51,837 nt of DNA from Cnuella takakiae (lineage in GTDB: Bacteria > Bacteroidota > Bacteroidia > Chitinophagales > Chitinophagaceae): assembly GCF_001953305.1 (NCBI RefSeq), contig NZ_MTFE01000010.1, positions 4,069,631 to 4,121,467 on the forward strand, given 5' to 3'. Positions 30,394 to 39,629 of this stretch are shown here, one piece after another. The notes under the pieces were generated by a model that was given only the letters and a program-made list of their open reading frames with translations, was not told the origin of the DNA and ran no database searches. Numbering within the stretch: the first letter of the stretch is position 1; every line of letters begins with the position of its first letter. The position numbers and the translations under genes were made by a program.

Positions 30394-30492
30394 GATTTAT
30401 ATGTGGTTAGACAATACCCTACTAGGTAGCATGTAATAAAAACAGTATATTGAAGGGTGCAGTTACCTACCCCTCATACAACCAGGCCGGAC

Positions 30493-31953
30493 ATGCAGTT
30501 TGAACCTGTTTACGACTTCCTGATCCAAAAGCTGGAACTGGAACTTCCGAAGCATCTTTCCTACCACAATGCAGCACATACCATCGACGTGGTACAGGCC
30601 GTAGATTACCTCGGCAAGTCGGAAGGCGTAAGCCCGTACGAATTGCAACTGCTGGCTGCTGCCGCGCTTTTTCATGACTCCGGTTTTTTGATCAGCCCCG
30701 AAAATCATGAAGAGCGATCCTGTGTGCTGGCAAGAGAATACCTGCCTCACTACGGCTACAGTGCGGAAGACATTGAGCAGATATGCCTGCTGATTATGGC
30801 GACCAAGCTTACGCATACGCCGGTCAACAAACTGGAAAGCATTATTTGTGATGCGGACCTGTATTACCTGGGTACCGAAAGGTTCCAGGAGCGCTCCGAA
30901 GACCTGTACCGCGAGTTTAAAGCACTGGGTATTGTAAAAAACTGGCAGGACTGGAACCTGAAGCAAAACAACTTTTTGAAGACCCACCGCTTTTACACCC
31001 ACACGGCGGTGAATGAGTATTCCTTCATTAAGATGCAAAACTTCCAGGAACTCAAAACCCGCCAGAAAGAAGCTTCCTGGAGCAGCAAGTACCACCAAAC
31101 TAAAACACAAGTCCATGACGGCATCCTCATCGTACTAGGCGTATTGTCGACAGGGTTTGCACTCAAAGGGTTCCTGGTGCCCAACATGTTTTTTGATGGC
31201 GGCATCACCGGCATCTCACTGCTGCTGCACGAGTTGTACCATACCAACCTGGCTTATACCATCGTGCTGGCCAACCTGCCATTGATCATAGTTAGCTATT
31301 TTACCGTTAGTAAAAGATTTGCCCTGCGTACCCTGCTTTGTGTAAGCCTGCTGGGTATCTGCCTGCTGGCATTCCCCTATCCTACCATCACATCCGACAA
31401 ACTGCTGATCTCCATTTTTGGTGGGTTTTTCCTAGGCCTGGGCATTGGTATGACCATGCGTGCAGGCTGTGCCCTCGATGGCGTGGAAGTGCTTGCATTG
31501 TATACCCTGCGGCGCACCAGTTTCACCATCACCGAAATCATTATGGCCATCAATGTCATGATCTTTGGATTTGCTGCCCTGCGCTTTGGCTTGGAAACGG
31601 CCCTGTATTCGGTGCTTACCTATTTCACGGCTTCGCGCACCATGGATTATGTGATTGAAGGCATCGAAGCCTATACCGGCGTTACCATTATTTCAGCCAA
31701 AAGCGAGATCATCAAAAGCAGGCTGGTAAACGAAATGGGGCGGAGCATTACTGTTTACAAAGGCGAACGGGGTTTTCTGCCGGGCTCCTATAAAGTGAGC
31801 AGCCAGGTAGATATCATTTTTACCGTGGCTACCCGTTTGGAATTGCGCCGGCTCAAAAACCTGGTGAACGAAATCGACCCCAATGCATTTGTATTTGCCA
31901 GCACCATCAAGGAAGCTTCGGGTGGCATCCTTAAACGCAGGCATGTCCATTAA
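30493..31953 (+). CDS. HD phosphohydrolase fused to YitT/DUF2179 membrane protein
   Basis: A 486-residue fusion. The N-terminal soluble HD domain (about 1-200) shows SYHNAAHTIDVVQAVDYL (His ligands), LFHDSGFLI (the HD pair) and ICDADLYYLG (final Asp). YHNxxHTxDVVQ is strikingly like the signature of class I cyclic-nucleotide phosphodiesterases. Residues about 208-395 hold five or six hydrophobic helices of the YitT family (FALKGFLVPNMFFDGGITGISLLLHE, GCALDGVEVLALYTLRR), and the C-terminus is a DUF2179 domain (TVYKGERGFLPG ... IIFTVATRLELRRLKNLV), both typical of YitT proteins. The GTG at 30457 is an upstream alternative start. It converges on an adenylate cyclase gene. A role in degrading a cyclic nucleotide is only an inference. 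Confidence 0.88.
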   Translation: MQFEPVYDFLIQKLELELPKHLSYHNAAHTIDVVQAVDYLGKSEGVSPYELQLLAAAALFHDSGFLISPENHEERSCVLAREYLPHYGYSAEDIEQICLLIMATKLTHTPVNKLESIICDADLYYLGTERFQERSEDLYREFKALGIVKNWQDWNLKQNNFLKTHRFYTHTAVNEYSFIKMQNFQELKTRQKEASWSSKYHQTKTQVHDGILIVLGVLSTGFALKGFLVPNMFFDGGITGISLLLHELYHTNLAYTIVLANLPLIIVSYFTVSKRFALRTLLCVSLLGICLLAFPYPTITSDKLLISIFGGFFLGLGIGMTMRAGCALDGVEVLALYTLRRTSFTITEIIMAINVMIFGFAALRFGLETALYSVLTYFTASRTMDYVIEGIEAYTGVTIISAKSEIIKSRLVNEMGRSITVYKGERGFLPGSYKVSSQVDIIFTVATRLELRRLKNLVNEIDPNAFVFASTIKEASGGILKRRHVH

Positions 31954-32188: not shown

Positions 32189-34177
32189 TCAATCATCGTA
32201 ACTGATGCTGGTTTTTTGCTGGAAAGCTTTTGCAAAAGAAACTGGCGCTTTTGCCACCAGGTCCTTGTCCACAAAGTACATATCGATCTCCCCTACATTC
32301 TTGGCACTGATCTTTCCGCGGTAGCTACAGGCAAACTCTCCCTTCACAATTTCGTAGGTTGCTGCCGAGATATTTACCCTGCCCGGTGTGCTATTGCTTT
32401 CCATACGGCTGGCTACGTTTACCGAACTTCCCCATATATCGTATGCATATTTTTTGCGGCCTACCACTCCTGCCACTACAGCGCCTACATTAATGCCGAT
32501 CCGCATTTGCCAGGGCAATAATCCTTTCGCCAGTCTTTTCTGGTTATAGCTCAACATGAAAGCCTGCATTTCAAGGGCGGCCCTTACAATGCGGAAAGGA
32601 TGATCGATATCGGGTGTAGGTATGCCGCCGGCACACATATAAGCGTCGCCAATTGTTTTGATCTTTTCCAAGTTGTACTTATCGATGATATCGTCGAAAG
32701 CCATAAAACACTCACTGAGGTCTTCTACAAGTGCCGAAGGCTCCATCTTGTCGGCGATGGAGGTAAATCCATTAAAGTCTGAAAAAAGAATGGATACCCG
32801 CTCATAGTTGCGCGGAGTGGCCTGTCCTTTCTGGCGCAGTTCCTGTGCCACTTCCGCCGGCAGGATATTGAGCAGGAGTCCTTCAATTTCATCTTTTTGT
32901 TTATCCAGCAACTGGTTGACCCGGACCTTCACCCGGTAGTTGCGGTACAGGATCACTGCAATCACTACCAAAAACACCAAACCAGCAATGGAGGCATTTT
33001 TAGCTATCCGCTGCCGTTTCAATTCCACTTCCTTCAGGCTGCGATCCTTCATCAGCAGGTTGATTTCCCCCTGCTTTTTTTGCAGGTCGAAATCGAATTG
33101 CAGCAAGGCTATTTTCTTGTCCCGCTCATTGTTGTACAGGCTGTCTTTGATGGATGCAAACAACTCATGGTAATAGAACGCATTGCGGTAATCGTTGGCA
33201 AGGGCATATGTTTTGGCAAGGCCATCGTATACATCTTTCAACTCGCGCAACATATTCACTTCTTCACCCAATGCTTTAGCCTTCAGGTAGTCGTTTTTTG
33301 CTGCGGGCAGGTTGCCCAATTGCGCATGTGCATTGGCCATTCCCAATAACGACTGGACCATGTCGTATTTGCCATTGAGGGTACGGGCAAATTCATAAGC
33401 TTCCTTGTGGTAAGCATATGCTTTTTGATAAGCACTATCTTTTGCGTAAAGCTTTCCCAATGAATTAAGTGCAGAAGGCTTATTCTCTACATCTCCTTTT
33501 GAGAAAGCATCCAAGGATTTTTGCAGGTAAAACAATGCCTTTCCTGTACTATCCTGCTGTCCATACAATTCTCCAATATTTCCAGACAAGGTACCAATGC
33601 CAAATCCATCTTGCAATTTCTCGCAAATGGCTAATGCTCGGGTGTAGTAGTCAATAGCCTTATTCCAATTTTCAGGCTTGTGCTCATATACAGCGCCTAC
33701 ATTATTTAAAGCCGTGTACACCCGCACTTTATCGCCGGCCTCTTCTGCAAGCCGCAGCGATTGGAGATAATGAGAAAGGGCTTTTTCATCATCGCCTTGA
33801 TTAAAATAAATAGCACCAATATTACTGAGCATGTTCGCTACCCCTACTTTATCGCCTGCTTCGCTGAACAGACGCTTGGCGCGGCTCCAATAATCGGTTG
33901 CTTCAACATACTTACCTTGATTGTAATACACTATACCAACAGCTTTCAAGGCCAAAGCCTCTCCTTTTACAAAACCGTTGCTACGAGCCAGGTCATATGC
34001 TTTTCGTGCCAGATTAATAGCACCAGCAGGATCATTGGTGTACCGTTCCTTGGCTTGCTGTAAAAGGCTATTTACTTGCACTGTATCCACATCGGCTGCA
34101 AGGACTTGGAGAGTGCCAGTCAAACTGGCCAGGATGGTAATCCAGAAAAATACCTTGTTACACTTCATCCGGTCCAT
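32189..34177 (-). CDS. TPR-containing class III adenylate cyclase
   Basis: A 662-residue protein. It has a signal-like N-terminal hydrophobic segment (about 10-28), at least six TPR repeats (about 35-345, e.g. NIGAIYFNQGDDEKALSHYLQSL), a coiled segment, one transmembrane helix (SIAGLVFLVVIAVILY, about 397-412) and a cytoplasmic cyclase domain (about 455-640). Catalytic features are ILFSDFNGFT and KTIGDAYM (the two metal Asp), Lys in LEKIKTIGD and Asp in YDIWGSSVNVASRME (the Lys/Asp pair expected for ATP), and Asn/Arg of the last motif. It should make cAMP in response to a periplasmic signal through the TPRs. It starts 31 bases after the giant subtilase gene on the same strand and may be co-transcribed with it. 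Confidence 0.93.
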   Translation of the reverse strand: MDRMKCNKVFFWITILASLTGTLQVLAADVDTVQVNSLLQQAKERYTNDPAGAINLARKAYDLARSNGFVKGEALALKAVGIVYYNQGKYVEATDYWSRAKRLFSEAGDKVGVANMLSNIGAIYFNQGDDEKALSHYLQSLRLAEEAGDKVRVYTALNNVGAVYEHKPENWNKAIDYYTRALAICEKLQDGFGIGTLSGNIGELYGQQDSTGKALFYLQKSLDAFSKGDVENKPSALNSLGKLYAKDSAYQKAYAYHKEAYEFARTLNGKYDMVQSLLGMANAHAQLGNLPAAKNDYLKAKALGEEVNMLRELKDVYDGLAKTYALANDYRNAFYYHELFASIKDSLYNNERDKKIALLQFDFDLQKKQGEINLLMKDRSLKEVELKRQRIAKNASIAGLVFLVVIAVILYRNYRVKVRVNQLLDKQKDEIEGLLLNILPAEVAQELRQKGQATPRNYERVSILFSDFNGFTSIADKMEPSALVEDLSECFMAFDDIIDKYNLEKIKTIGDAYMCAGGIPTPDIDHPFRIVRAALEMQAFMLSYNQKRLAKGLLPWQMRIGINVGAVVAGVVGRKKYAYDIWGSSVNVASRMESNSTPGRVNISAATYEIVKGEFACSYRGKISAKNVGEIDMYFVDKDLVAKAPVSFAKAFQQKTSISYDD

Positions 34178-34208: not shown

Positions 34209-37200
34209 TCAACGGGGTAGCACCACAAAACGGCGTCGTATCACCTGTGTACCCGTTTCAATCCGTAAGAAATAAACCCCCGCAGCCAGCCCCGATATAT
34301 TCAGGCGAACGCTACTGGCATTGCCTATAGGTTTGATATTCTGTACCTGTCCGTTGGCTGCCACCACCTGGAAGCGCAAATTTGGAGCGGGCTTTACCCC
34401 ATTTACAAACAGCACATCTCGTGCAGGGTTGGGGAATACAGCGATAGTCACCTCGTCAATTGTTGGTGTAGTTTCTGTGGGAGCAATTGCATTGCGGCTC
34501 TTACACCGGGTAGAAGTTGAACTTGCTTCACTTGCCGAGGCCGTTTTTTGGTTTACATCAACGGTTACAAGGTTCCAGGTTATTTTTTTACCATCAAAAG
34601 GAACAGTAAAACGGCCATATCCCGGCTCAAAGAACTCAGGTGGCTGCCCACTGAAAGAACCTTCAGCAACAATTTGATTATCAGCCCCACGGAGCACCAC
34701 TACGGTAGCTGCATTATCATTTTGATAAGCAAAGCGGGCAATAAAGCCAAAGCCTGATGGATGGTTACGAACAACCTCTACACATTCCAAAATAGTTTTC
34801 ACTTTCTTGGTACCCGGTCCAAACGGATTAACATACAGCCTCCCATTCTTGTATGCTACCATATAATTATCCAGTTTGGGAGATTGCAAACCCTCGGGTT
34901 GGACTTCATACACACCTGCGGCCCCGGTATACTTCGGCGAAGTGTTAAATATGGGGGTACCTGGTACTACAGTTTGTGCATCGGTATACTGCCACCCCCT
35001 GGTGGTTGCTGTAAAGTGTACCGGCAAGGTCCCTTGTGTAACAATAATAGTATCGGCTGCGACCTCCAACGGCATTTTATTTATAGTGAGGGTACCTGCA
35101 ATTGGGTTAATAAAATAATTGGCCGGAGCTACCAGGTTATAGCTTGCAGTTACCTGGTAGGATCCTGCAGCTATTTGACTCAACGGCACCACTTGCTGCA
35201 AACTATTGCGCACCACAAACTTAGGCGGGCCGGCCAGCACGGCAGCCGCTTTATCATCGTAACGATAACCAGTGACCTTAACTTCCAGCACAGGTGCCTT
35301 GCCATAGCTTTCTGTGGCATTGCTTACGGTTGCTGTGAGTGGCGCAGGTGTTACGGTCAGCTTTCCTACCTTGTACCGGACAATGAAATTAGTGTTGAGC
35401 ACGGCGGCAGGTAACATCAGGTGGTTGCCGGAAGTAAGGCCCGTTACCATGTTTATGGGTTGAATACCAGTGAGCGAATCGCCTTCAGGAGCATTTACAT
35501 CCGACTCATCTACCACAACTGCCAAGTTAGAAGAACTGCTGTCCACGGTGCTGCTGTTTACCAAAGCCCTCGATGAATTGACCAGCGCCCTGCTATTCAC
35601 AAGGGCACGGCTATTAACCAAGGCCCGGGAACTATTTAATGCTGCCGCATTTACCAGAGCGCGAGAGGAATTGAGAGTGGTAGTATCCGGATTGGTGCGG
35701 TAAGCCACAAAACTCTCTGGTGCCACATCAATCACGTAGGTGGTATCAGGTACTGAATTTACAAGGGCACGTGACGAATTAACCAGGGCTCTGCTATTCA
35801 CCAGTGCACGGCTGGAGGCCAGCATCGCCAAATTATTTAATTCAACAGCGCTTAATTCACTGCCATTTACAAGGGCACGCGAACTAAGGATTAAGGCATC
35901 TTTTGCAATCACCTCTTTATGCTGCCTTTGCAACGTATCAAACAAAAGCGCAGACCCCACCAACACCACAGCCGTATCAGGCTGGTAGTTGAAATTGAAA
36001 TCCGTGATCTTTTCGCCATACACTACCGTTGTATCACGTGGGCTAACGGTAATGGGAAGCGGTAAGATATCGAGCACGCCATCAACGAAGCTGTATTCAT
36101 TTACCTCCAGCAATCCGATGTCGGCAGGCAGGCTGTTGTCGAATGCGCTGACGGGCCGGATCCGGTACTTGTTTACATTGCTGCTTACCTGGCCGGTACT
36201 GGTAAAGCTTAAACTGCTCAATCCCAGCTGGCCGATCAACGGCGAAACCGGATCAACCAATTGCCCGTCTACAAAAACACTTGCGGTAAATGCAGGCATT
36301 TGCTCGCCATAGAGTTTGGTCTTATCATTTGCCACTACCCGCACTTTTTTCTTTACCGGCGCAAAGAAGTAGAAGGGTTCCGATGTACCGCCATCAAGGC
36401 CGCTGGGTGTTACCGCTCCGGTACGCAGTTGAATGGGCGGGTTGGCAGTAGCGCCAAAGGCAGGCAACAAAGCCGTGGCCGTTGTACTGTTAAGCACGGT
36501 TGTAGGCAGGGGTGTGCCCCTGAACAGTACCTGCGTATTGTTGGTCAGAAAATTACCTTCAATTACGATGGTTGCCTCTGCCGAGCCAGGGGTAATGGCG
36601 GCATTTTCCATGCGCACGGTATTGATCTGGGGCGTAGGCGCTGCAAAGCTGAATACCGAAAGATAAGGCTGGATAAAACCGCTGCCGCTGCTCAAATCAA
36701 CACCTGCAGGGCCCATGTCCAGGGCCGCACTCCGCAAAAGCTGCCGTACCTGTTCGGGAGTAGGATTGCTGTTGAAAAACTTCCGGCGGGCTTGCATCAG
36801 CAGGGCCGCAGCACCGGCTGCATGGGGTGCCGCCGCCGATGTACCAAAGAAGTTGAAGAACCGGTCGCCGTCGATATTGGGAGCGCCCAGGTTTACAGTA
36901 GTATTGCCGCCATTGGGCGCTGCCAGGTCGGGCTTGCTGCGCACCTGCCCTTCAACGGGTGTACCGCCTACGGAAGAGAAAGAAGCAATGCTAGGCGGGT
37001 TCAAACCATAAGGCGGGGTGTTGGTATACAATACCGCGCCTATGGTGATGGCGCCGGCAGCATTGGCCTGCCCAACGATGGTGGAACTGTTTTGCGCATG
37101 CTCCAGCACCGAGCCTTCGCCGCGGAAGAAGATGTACTTGAAAGGCACCGCAGCCGAACCTGCGGCACGTACAATCAGCAGGTTTACCTCCACATCCGCA

Positions 37201-39629
37201 TCCACTGCAAAAGGCATAATCTCCACAGGGTCGCCACGCAGGTTGTTGCGGTTAAAACCATAAATGATGCGGCCGCTGTTATCTGCCAGGTAGATATCGA
37301 GGTCGTTCTGTGCACCGGTGGCTGTTTGCCCCTGCGAGAAAAATGCATCCTGCCATTGCAGCACCAGGGTATAAATGCCTTTTTTCAACTGCACCTTTTG
37401 CAGGATATCGCCACCGCCAAAATTGTGGGCCTGCCCGCTTACACCGGCAGGGGCCGCGGCGGGGTTGAACACTGCGCCGTAAGAGCGGCTACCGAAATTT
37501 CCGGCTGCGGTAAAATAGGTAACCCCTGCCTGGCTTACCTCATCCACAGCATGGGCTATCTGGCCGTCGGTGAAAAACGGTTCGGTAATATGAGAGATAT
37601 CGTCTACCACCACCTGGCAGCCTGCAGCGGCCAATTGCCGGATACCCAGCGCCATATCGCCGGCACTGCGCACCCCGGTGCGGAAAGCAAGGCTGGCTCC
37701 CGGAGCTATATCGTGAACAATCTGGAGCATCGCCCGGCCCTCATCGGTACCGGCCCCAAGGGGCAGGTCTTCCAACACCTGCACGCCTGTGGTATTGGCA
37801 AGGTTGCCCGGCCCCGGCAGGTCTTCATTAGCAAGGTCTACCGAAGCAGGATCGCCCTCCTTTGAATTATAGCTATCCGACAGTACGCCCACCTTCACGC
37901 CATGGCCGTCCAGTTTATACCCTTCGCGTACAAAATGCGACCGCATGGCGGTATCGCCCGCCGTTACCACGAGCCCGCCATTACGCACGGCAGGAAACAG
38001 CGGCCGTACAAAATTGACCAGCCCGGGCAATTTGTTGAGTTTGGGCAGGTTGGCAACAGGGAAACTACCGGTGATCACCAGGCTCTGGCTACCATTATAA
38101 ACAGTATCGCTCAACCCATAATCCTGCCCTGTAAGCATTTCGTAAACTTCCCCGGCTTTGTCTTTTTCGGCAACAACCTCAATGCGTACCCTGCCGGGTG
38201 TCAACTGGAAAATAGTTTTTTCAGGATCCTGTACGGTTCCGGGATTTTGCACCAGGGCGGTAAGTTCGGGCCCTATTGGGTTTTTTACCTTTCCCACCGG
38301 TTCGTATAATGGGTCGATACAGGGCTGAAGAGGGGCCAACTGCACGGTATCGGTACCAACGGCCCCACATTGCGTATTGGTAACGTAGAGCACATAAGTG
38401 CCCGGGGCAGTGGCGATAATACTGGCTTTATTGCTTTCACCGCTAATGACGCCGCCACCAAAGGCCGCCCAGCGGTAACTTACGTTGGCTGTTGTCGAAC
38501 TGCCAGTAAGCGTTACCGATTTGATGGAACAACCTATTAATTGGTCAGCACCGGCGTTGGCTGCAGGCACGGGACAGTTGAGGGGGGCATAGGTAATGCT
38601 GACACCGCTTTCCACCAGCACCTGGGTACCGCTCCATAAGGCACCGCTCACCTTGGCATCGCTGGTACCCGAACCAATACGGATGCCGCCATTAGGCGCA
38701 TACACCGTCCCCAGCCACTGCGAGCGATTGCTACCCGAAGCACCATTACTCATCACCCAGGCATACCCACCCAGGCCTGTTCCATAACCCTGTGTTTCGG
38801 CATATATCTGGCCCGGGCTGCCGCCATTTACCAACTCTACATTAAGCTTCCCGATATTGGCGTCCCCCTGAACATAAATGAGGAAAACCCCGGAAGGGTT
38901 TTCTTTAAAATCAAATACAAAGCGGTTTACATTTCCGCTGTTGTTGATGGACTTGAAAGTATACTTTCCAGGCTTTGAAAAACGGAGCACCTGCCCCCCG
39001 CCAAGTTTCATTTCGTTATATACGCCCTCGTCGATATTGCCACCCGCCAGCACATTGGTAATGCTGCTTCCTGTCATGTCGGATGGCTTGGGAAGGGCAG
39101 GCAATAGCGGGGGCGTAAAGCTTTTTTCAAAAGCACCTCCTCGTGGATCTGGCCCCGTATAACTGCCCCCTTTAAGAAAATTGACGGTACCATTTACGGT
39201 GCCGCTTACCACTGTGGTATGGCCTACCACCTCCATATTTCCATTGATAAGGGCATTGGAACCAATTTGAACAGTATTGGCTGCCCCGCCACTGTTGGCA
39301 GCGCTGATATTGGCATTAACGGTATTGCTGTTGGTGAGCACTACCCTGCCACCGCTGTAGATATGGCTATTGATGGTGGCAGGCCCCGTAGAACTTACCA
39401 GGTGGTGGCTGCCTACTGCGCCATTGATGATGGCCGATGAAGAAGACAAAAAGACCCCGCAGCCGGGTGCGGGAATGGTGCCTGTGCCGCAATCGGGGCG
39501 GCCGGCGAAAATGACAAAATCGCGCATGGACAGTTGCTGCTGGGCAAATGCCGGTTCCGGTACGAGAAAGGAACAGATAATGGATGCAACAGCCAGGAAT
39601 AAGCGCAAAGCTCCGGACAGGTAATGCAT
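34209..39629 (-). CDS. Giant secreted choice-of-anchor-A / S8 peptidase / MBG / T9SS protein
   Basis: An 1806-residue secreted protein: signal peptide (about 1-30); a choice-of-anchor-A-like beta domain (30-350, RDFVIFAGRPDCG ... WLGTVYAPNGGIRIG); a PKD/Ig-like segment (about 355-430); an S8 subtilase domain (about 575-980) with VGVLSDSYN (Asp about 585), TAAGN and GTSAAAPHAAG (Ser about 930); an IPT/TIG-like domain; several MBG-type domains (from about 1120, KLYGEQMPAF, VVYGEKITDF, ATESYGKAPV); and a C-terminal type IX sorting domain (ending RRRFVVLPR). Where subtilases have the catalytic His the protein reads TDEGRAMLQIVHDIAPGA, with Glu instead. Residues about 1251-1358 contain nine RALVN peptides. 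It probably acts at the cell surface. The gene lies 31 bases upstream of the adenylate cyclase gene. Confidence 0.88.
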   Translation of the reverse strand: MHYLSGALRLFLAVASIICSFLVPEPAFAQQQLSMRDFVIFAGRPDCGTGTIPAPGCGVFLSSSSAIINGAVGSHHLVSSTGPATINSHIYSGGRVVLTNSNTVNANISAANSGGAANTVQIGSNALINGNMEVVGHTTVVSGTVNGTVNFLKGGSYTGPDPRGGAFEKSFTPPLLPALPKPSDMTGSSITNVLAGGNIDEGVYNEMKLGGGQVLRFSKPGKYTFKSINNSGNVNRFVFDFKENPSGVFLIYVQGDANIGKLNVELVNGGSPGQIYAETQGYGTGLGGYAWVMSNGASGSNRSQWLGTVYAPNGGIRIGSGTSDAKVSGALWSGTQVLVESGVSITYAPLNCPVPAANAGADQLIGCSIKSVTLTGSSTTANVSYRWAAFGGGVISGESNKASIIATAPGTYVLYVTNTQCGAVGTDTVQLAPLQPCIDPLYEPVGKVKNPIGPELTALVQNPGTVQDPEKTIFQLTPGRVRIEVVAEKDKAGEVYEMLTGQDYGLSDTVYNGSQSLVITGSFPVANLPKLNKLPGLVNFVRPLFPAVRNGGLVVTAGDTAMRSHFVREGYKLDGHGVKVGVLSDSYNSKEGDPASVDLANEDLPGPGNLANTTGVQVLEDLPLGAGTDEGRAMLQIVHDIAPGASLAFRTGVRSAGDMALGIRQLAAAGCQVVVDDISHITEPFFTDGQIAHAVDEVSQAGVTYFTAAGNFGSRSYGAVFNPAAAPAGVSGQAHNFGGGDILQKVQLKKGIYTLVLQWQDAFFSQGQTATGAQNDLDIYLADNSGRIIYGFNRNNLRGDPVEIMPFAVDADVEVNLLIVRAAGSAAVPFKYIFFRGEGSVLEHAQNSSTIVGQANAAGAITIGAVLYTNTPPYGLNPPSIASFSSVGGTPVEGQVRSKPDLAAPNGGNTTVNLGAPNIDGDRFFNFFGTSAAAPHAAGAAALLMQARRKFFNSNPTPEQVRQLLRSAALDMGPAGVDLSSGSGFIQPYLSVFSFAAPTPQINTVRMENAAITPGSAEATIVIEGNFLTNNTQVLFRGTPLPTTVLNSTTATALLPAFGATANPPIQLRTGAVTPSGLDGGTSEPFYFFAPVKKKVRVVANDKTKLYGEQMPAFTASVFVDGQLVDPVSPLIGQLGLSSLSFTSTGQVSSNVNKYRIRPVSAFDNSLPADIGLLEVNEYSFVDGVLDILPLPITVSPRDTTVVYGEKITDFNFNYQPDTAVVLVGSALLFDTLQRQHKEVIAKDALILSSRALVNGSELSAVELNNLAMLASSRALVNSRALVNSSRALVNSVPDTTYVIDVAPESFVAYRTNPDTTTLNSSRALVNAAALNSSRALVNSRALVNSRALVNSSRALVNSSTVDSSSSNLAVVVDESDVNAPEGDSLTGIQPINMVTGLTSGNHLMLPAAVLNTNFIVRYKVGKLTVTPAPLTATVSNATESYGKAPVLEVKVTGYRYDDKAAAVLAGPPKFVVRNSLQQVVPLSQIAAGSYQVTASYNLVAPANYFINPIAGTLTINKMPLEVAADTIIVTQGTLPVHFTATTRGWQYTDAQTVVPGTPIFNTSPKYTGAAGVYEVQPEGLQSPKLDNYMVAYKNGRLYVNPFGPGTKKVKTILECVEVVRNHPSGFGFIARFAYQNDNAATVVVLRGADNQIVAEGSFSGQPPEFFEPGYGRFTVPFDGKKITWNLVTVDVNQKTASASEASSTSTRCKSRNAIAPTETTPTIDEVTIAVFPNPARDVLFVNGVKPAPNLRFQVVAANGQVQNIKPIGNASSVRLNISGLAAGVYFLRIETGTQVIRRRFVVLPR
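35556..35879 (-). repeat. Nine copies of the peptide RALVN within the giant protein
   Basis: Nine copies of RALVN, usually as SRALVNS or SSRALVNS, lie in three groups (one, three and five copies in coding order) inside an MBG-type domain. The peptide is invariant but the codons are not: Arg appears as AGG, AGA, CGT, CGG or CGC, and eight different 15-base spellings occur among nine copies. The first and last copies are at 35865-35879 and 35556-35570. Confidence 0.95.

Follow-up and report, generated by a model that had tools for sequence, protein, structure and literature searches.

Uniform hexapeptides with near-random codons in an array that splits an MBG domain of secreted S8-family proteins of Bacteroidota

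Proteins built from repeated units are known from several systems, among them the functional amyloid repeat protein CsgA. In Pseudomonas, FapC fibrils stack their repeats with Asn and Gln networks, and cross-seeding between strains is reported as limited and not ordered simply by overall homology (PMC12392863). A second reference point is the yeast alpha-factor precursor MFalpha1, for which 16 synonymous repeat sequences are reported among 135 open reading frames of two species (PMC5850478). For protein repeats in general, Persi et al. 2016 report that repeats within a protein diverge faster than orthologous repeats between species (PMC5120217). Here we examine a further case in Cnuella takakiae (assembly GCF_001953305.1), in a stretch of 51,837 nucleotides of contig NZ_MTFE01000010.1 (positions 4,069,631 to 4,121,467) that is called the window throughout. 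Its minus strand encodes a secreted protein of 1806 residues, in which the peptide RALVN recurs as part of a hexapeptide array.

Each of these systems resembles the locus in part. MFalpha1 likewise holds several copies of one exact peptide, with differing synonymous spellings, in one secreted precursor; unlike there, the hexapeptide copies here abut inside a domain, and their codons are close to random. FapC repeats are imperfect and joined by linkers, whereas the present units repeat a hexapeptide exactly, sit in the MBG insert of a type IX secretion system (T9SS) protein and are known from sequence alone. With general protein repeats, as Persi et al. describe them, the arrays share tandem units under purifying selection, yet they reverse the order reported there, the copies being uniform within a protein and differing between species. 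The host protein has the domain make-up of the Pfam MBG_2, Peptidase_S8 and T9SS type A proteins of Bacteroidota, from which it departs in that its second MBG domain is split by the array. No published description of hexapeptide arrays was found by title or abstract, the reach into the subscription literature being limited; the string RALVN does occur in five papers, none of them by title about this protein.

The reading frame contains exactly nine RALVN peptides, at residues 1250-1358 and in groups of one, three and five. The original prediction, made from the window alone, had reported nine copies in three groups at 35556-35879, mostly as SRALVNS and within residues 1240-1370, with eight distinct DNA spellings, five Arg codons and no trace of recent duplication; all of this is borne out. 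Ser precedes RALVN in every copy and also follows it in seven of the nine. Among the nine 15-nucleotide spellings, eight are distinct (CGTGCCCTTGTAAAT is used twice), and five different codons are used for Arg. Codon identity between copies is 0.33, against 0.31 expected from random codon draws on the rest of the same protein (z 0.4), nine short copies alone having little statistical power. Codon matches between copies are thus at the random level, and recent tandem duplication of RALVN in the window is rejected. A degenerate SRALVNS-type scan of the organism's own genome gave eight matches, seven of them inside the array; the eighth has a stop codon in place of the first Ser.

Alignment with relatives shows that the array is inserted into the second MBG domain, which it divides into two halves. 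The repeats do lie within an MBG-type domain, as had been predicted; they are not, however, a regular strand of it, since the insert interrupts the domain. The spacers between the three repeat groups are conserved in kind among the aligned relatives.

These relatives were gathered in two ways. A degenerate two-copy RALVN pattern, run over a genome collection, gave 26 stretches, 23 of which carry arrays of RALVN kind and are titled as Bacteroidota (L042 and L056 are seemingly one gene on adjoining stretches of one contig); L041, L043 and L049 were set aside by eye as chance matches, with nothing beyond two chance copies. Among 396 genomes of the order, 34 proved to have the family in a query with the S8 core and first MBG domain (E 1e-30), as did 20 among 395 of the class; some short matches lack the MBG part. 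Within the organism's own genus, eight of 18 genomes, the window's included, have a strong match, and seven different repeats occur there, G006 and G014 sharing one. A profile for the insert (A2) matched all 20 genomes that had been chosen for having the family, each listed place at a known S8-MBG gene, and a phylum-wide profile search for another host of the insert matched four of 395 genomes, all at S8-family loci.

The comparison set comprises 91 proteins, 80 found by protein similarity and 11 by the RALVN-type pattern, the latter biased to RALVN-type peptides. Fourteen loci without a usable core and insert were dropped, L041, L043 and L049 among them, and nine were left out early as the same genes as later loci (L009, L011, L012, L014, L018, L046, L051, L053, L064). 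L038, L040, L044, L048 and L057 are the same genes as L152, L151, L141, L137 and L145; they were kept out of the paralogue test and retained in the rows of synonymous divergence (pS). Nine proteins with other unit lengths or registers (L015, L016, L019, L077, L081, L085, L092, L118, L120) stand outside the 82 hexamer arrays and were kept in the paralogue test; in L111 and L123 no hexamer array is usable. At the same site of the protein, L015, L016, L071, L077, L081, L082, L118 and L120 have units that are longer or much higher in number, such as NGQTLTLS, AVVILNGEEYPVVNSRLTGG-like units or, in L082, 54 hexads.

Across this set the peptide is uniform within a protein and its codons are not. Copies agree at a median of 0.91 of letters over the 91 proteins, a value raised by the threshold for copies, which had to match the consensus of their protein at 4 of 6 positions. 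Between copies, pS was below 0.2 in one of 87 rows and at least 0.4 in the other 86, five of the rows being duplicates, and non-synonymous values (pN) are inflated by the two codon boxes of Ser; this comparison, proposed along with the original prediction, leaves synonymous sites near saturation. The two arrays seen to have the look of recently expanded DNA are L154 (G813, pS 0.14) and L063 (codon identity 0.85). Over the 82 hexamer arrays, median codon identity was 0.43 against 0.37 in random draws, with z above 3 in 10 arrays, above 2 in 23 and below -2 in none. Neighbouring copies were closer in codons (p <0.05) in six of the 82, which is about the chance level. Because ten arrays exceed z 3, a minority retains a trace of shared DNA origin. 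With codons otherwise this close to random, recent DNA copying fails to explain the uniformity, and protein-level selection on the repeated peptide is well supported by the sequence comparison. Long-standing selection on the exact peptide, as first proposed, therefore stands at the protein level, here and in nearly all hexamer arrays; the peptide is exact within one protein only and not among homologues.

The slots of the relatives are filled by other peptides, including GYALVN, PAYLVN, LRGIVS, GKAAVN, GKSIMN, PYAVAN and PRVVTN, and copy number ranges from 5 to 54 (copies counted at 4 of 6 matches). RALVN is hence rejected as a universal conserved motif, and the proposal that it is one fixed ligand, cleavage or assembly word is not supported. 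The 82 arrays yield 46 consensus hexamers, set in slots and spacers whose layout is conserved. Asn ends 39 of these hexamers and is, at position 6, the sole near-constant residue of the unit across species; position 4 is Leu, Ile or Val in 40, position 5 is Val in 29, and position 2 is Arg or Lys in 35. Repeat number and sequence do vary between species, yet not freely: the copies of one protein, and usually the paralogues of one genome, vary together. Periodicity extends past the counted units. Of 330 [LIVM][VIAT][NS] triplets outside them, up to 18 residues from one, 261 keep a six-residue register, compared with 1661 of 6674 for the other eligible positions, in a count over all rows of the family set with duplicates and non-hexamer members included. 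Since these degenerate triplets hold the hexad register, the array reads as one periodic structure, and the exact copies seemingly belong to a longer series in which only some rungs are exact.

Between genomes, the peptide changes from lineage to lineage and is common to close ones. Mean unit identity of pairs from different genomes was 0.49 at a core identity of 0.60-0.65 (269 pairs), 0.52 at 0.65-0.70 (62 pairs) and 0.84 at 0.75-0.80 (10 pairs). One peptide is held by close lineages in the case of GIPLVN (L086, L088 and L089, of one genus) and of GTALVN (L105-L107).

Paralogues within a genome agree to a greater extent. The set holds 20 within-genome pairs from 15 genomes and 13 genera, 19 of them below a core identity of 0.85. 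Two families were searched deliberately for observed paralogues, the motifs being then not yet known; related genomes recur (G804/G805 and G802/G803), and L143, the second gene of G817, has no usable insert. Mean unit identity in the 19 pairs was 0.770, against 0.480 in core-matched pairs from different genomes, and was reached in none of 20,000 core-matched resamples; core identity is taken here as divergence age, and faster evolution after duplication would upset the matching. By genus, the excess was positive in 11 of 13 (mean 0.266, Wilcoxon p 0.0023), g303 being positive solely through the young pair L113/L122. When pairs were matched on both core and spacer identity, unit identity was still 0.718 against 0.499 (14 pairs). 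Spacers generally change faster than the core, their identity exceeding core identity in three of the 19 within-genome pairs, which makes the spacer-matched test the fairer one. As the unit excess survives it, gene conversion of the whole insert is rejected as the sole cause of paralogue matching, the exchange in G782 described below notwithstanding.

Individual lineages illustrate the pattern. L132 and L133 are sister orthologues from two genomes of one genus (tree support 97, core identity 0.82), and their peptides differ, each resembling the paralogues of its own genome. L132 has GRVVTN nine times and GRAVTN once, and its two paralogues have PRVVTN; L133 and its paralogue L135 both have GRAIVN, with units identical (1.00), spacers at 0.45, core at 0.54 and codons as in random draws. 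GRAIVN fills all six arrays of genus g360 (L138, L139, L142, L144, L149, L150), and ARALVN or GRALVN all five of genus g364 (L137, L141, L145, L151, L152), in both cases spread over the core tree. In that tree, a quick one in which 29 of 88 inner branches are drawn open, L149 and L150 group with L141 and L151 (support 99), and L137 sits in an unresolved fork near the L138 group. Codon identity of orthologous against other copies was 0.37 and 0.30 in L132/L133, 0.47 and 0.44 in L149/L151, and 0.38 and 0.40 in L137/L138, figures that rest on 27 to 38 orthologous copies and do not discriminate re-expansion from copy-by-copy change. The matching of paralogues within a genome suggests a trans-acting constraint.

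As a tentative first choice, we read the insert as a hexad beta-structure whose identical rungs would stack within and between paralogous surface proteins. The hexads, which lie in the MBG domain of a protein secreted by the T9SS, follow a generic pattern of three free residues, one hydrophobic residue, Val, Thr or Ala, and then Asn, and most hexads of one protein bear the same lineage-specific hexapeptide. Copies would match each other as rungs, Asn and the other shared side chains forming ladders, and paralogues would match since rungs of different molecules co-assemble in the matrix or at the cell surface. Any copy that failed to match would then be a fault, which would place every copy under purifying selection and drive parallel change in paralogues. 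What speaks for structural rung matching is that the hexads keep register, that Asn is nearly constant, that the frame is fixed and that a cleavage site is lacking; that rung matching and co-assembly are what force copies and paralogues to agree is what we infer. Possible, though we hold it doubtful, is the wider proposal that the hexapeptide acts as a genome-specific matching code, by which the array-bearing paralogues of a cell would assemble with, or be recognised by, proteins of the same kind, and which would shift in parallel in every copy and usually in every paralogue, through selection on the protein and not through DNA copying.

Several observations weigh against the rung-matching structure. 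The structure prediction of the repeat region that had been called for gave models of the flanking MBG parts, with block means of about 86-94 for the first MBG domain and 54-83 for the halves of the split one, and no confident fold for the insert (10-residue means 23-46). A second AlphaFold2 attempt, on another family member, was poor throughout (mean 36.1, insert mostly 26-41); the inputs were 16 and 14 sequences, all of RALVN type. Beta structure of the insert is for this reason unproven, and disorder is possible on these models. Known functional amyloids have imperfect repeats, whereas those of the hexapeptide arrays are exact. A matching paralogue is not generally needed, since most genomes with the family gave a single match (31 of 34 in the order and 14 of 20 in the class, with at most two candidates scored per genome). 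The matching rule is broken in G146 (AKPLVN / PKVVTN) and G819 (QRVIAS / GRILSN) and partly in G660 (GRVVTS / PRVITN), and the third paralogue of G661 (L123) has another repeat and was left out of the tests as it lacks a hexamer array. Spacers, too, show a within-genome excess (0.526 against 0.432, 18 hexamer pairs), smaller than that of the units; this spacer excess falls to 0.466 against 0.413 (14 pairs) when G782, G745 and two young pairs are removed. In G782, the spacers of L104 and L117 are 0.86 identical at a core identity of 0.51, with a spacer codon identity of 0.73, which points clearly to an exchange of insert or core between these paralogues. Given this exchange and the spacer excess, part of the matching may have its origin in old exchange among paralogues.

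A close rival to rung matching, though one we judge rather unlikely to be right, is that the hexapeptide is a short linear motif for a putative shared partner, such as an adaptor, receptor, modifying enzyme or anchoring protein in the same cell. Many copies would provide avidity, and a change in the partner would drag along all copies and paralogues. Identity within proteins and matching among paralogues fit this proposal equally, and the Arg or Lys preferred at position 2 would suit a recognised side chain. A simple binding motif, however, needs neither fixed spacing nor conserved spacers, and the hexads that hold register outside the counted copies speak for structure.

Unlikely as a full account is an ordinary history of tandem duplication of one unit, followed by purifying selection long enough to saturate synonymous sites, with paralogue matching left by old gene conversion of the insert. 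It is helped by the minority of arrays with residual DNA similarity, L154 and L063 included, and by the G782 exchange and the within-genome spacer excess. Re-expansion, on the other hand, predicts more recent-looking arrays than the single row of low pS, spacers rarely exceed core identity within genomes, L133 and L135 agree fully in their units with random codons and diverged spacers, and the unit excess remains after spacer matching. Plain purifying selection also leaves the joint change of all copies unexplained. Ordinary history with some gene conversion hence explains part of the data, but not the joint change of copies without DNA similarity.

Less likely than these readings, and improbable on our assessment, is a precursor of many identical signal peptides, cut by its own S8-like domain or another protease and fixed per species by a receptor as for yeast alpha-factor, a proposal that draws on the many synonymous spellings of identical peptides in MFalpha1 and on the S8-like domain in the same protein, but that meets copies abutting without the conserved cleavage site of a pheromone polyprotein, conserved spacers, an array placed inside a domain, and an S8 catalytic triad of which Ser and SDS motifs were seen.

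Table 1. Features of the array gene in the window (positions counted from the first nucleotide of the window)
Feature	Positions	Strand	Basis
Open reading frame, 1806 aa, secreted protein with S8-like, MBG and T9SS sorting domains	34209..39629	minus	translation; Pfam/NCBIfam
Peptidase_S8 match, residues 808-984	36678..37208	minus	Pfam; solved-sequence matches
First MBG_2 domain, residues 1097-1162, best Pfam stretch	36144..36341	minus	Pfam; confident beta fold by AlphaFold2
First half of second MBG domain, before the insert	35985..36059	minus	alignments
Repeat group 1, one RALVN	35865..35879	minus	peptide scan of reading frame
Repeat group 2, three RALVN (35796-35810, 35778-35792, 35757-35771)	35757..35810	minus	peptide scan of reading frame
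Spacer VPDTTYVIDVAPESFVAYRTNPDTTTLN between groups 2 and 3, kept in kind among relatives	35670..35753	minus	alignments
Repeat group 3, five RALVN (35649-35663, 35613-35627, 35595-35609, 35577-35591, 35556-35570)	35556..35663	minus	peptide scan of reading frame
Spacer after the array (...NLAVVVDESDVNAPEGDSL...), kept in kind among relatives	35460..35555	minus	alignments
Second half of interrupted MBG domain (INMVTG...GKLTV)	35352..35459	minus	alignments
T9SS type A sorting domain, residues 1731-1803	34221..34439	minus	Pfam; NCBIfam

The giant protein had been predicted to be a T9SS cargo with a subtilase domain, and profile scores agree (Table 1). PF00082 assigns it to the S8 subtilase family (69.1 bits, gathering score 21.8), and the region matches 12 solved subtilisin-like sequences, the best at E 8.3e-9. 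The C-terminal Por_Secre_tail of a T9SS type A cargo is recognised by TIGR04183 (43.1 bits, cut-off 23) and PF18962 (38.9 bits, cut-off 27), and PF18676 (MBG_2) covers three stretches at 63 bits against a gathering score of 25. DUF7305-, PKD- and TIG-like stretches score under the Pfam cut-offs. Up to E 1, the protein has no Pfam match to Hexapep, the profile family of left-handed beta-helices, and a PDB sequence search with the MBG region gave no match up to E 1; the array itself is matched by no Pfam or NCBIfam model. The GTSAAAPH motif, which we take to be the Ser motif of the S8 catalytic triad, lies at residues 928-939 (within 36813-36848, minus strand), and SDS, which like HGT we presume to be a triad motif, at residues 577-588. 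No HGT motif was seen by eye in the 1806-residue translation; TDEGRAML stands between the SDS and GTSAAAPH motifs.

Directly downstream of the array gene lies a gene for a TPR protein with an adenylate/guanylate cyclase domain (32189-34177, minus strand). A YitT_membrane and DUF2179 protein (30457-31953, plus strand) carries about 200 additional N-terminal residues, which by eye have the look of an HD-type phosphohydrolase and give no Pfam match up to 1e-5. The same genome encodes a second giant protein (G000:C1:668415-672518, L002-L008), with an open frame of 2129 residues and many MBG-like repeats; no RALVN-type array was found in the part of it that was read.

If the hexapeptide is a matching code, concerted evolution would here act at the level of the protein, and the peptide might serve Bacteroidota cells as a self-recognition tag. 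The arrays would then provide a natural system for many sites changing together, as well as a candidate code for recognition or assembly in environmental Bacteroidota.
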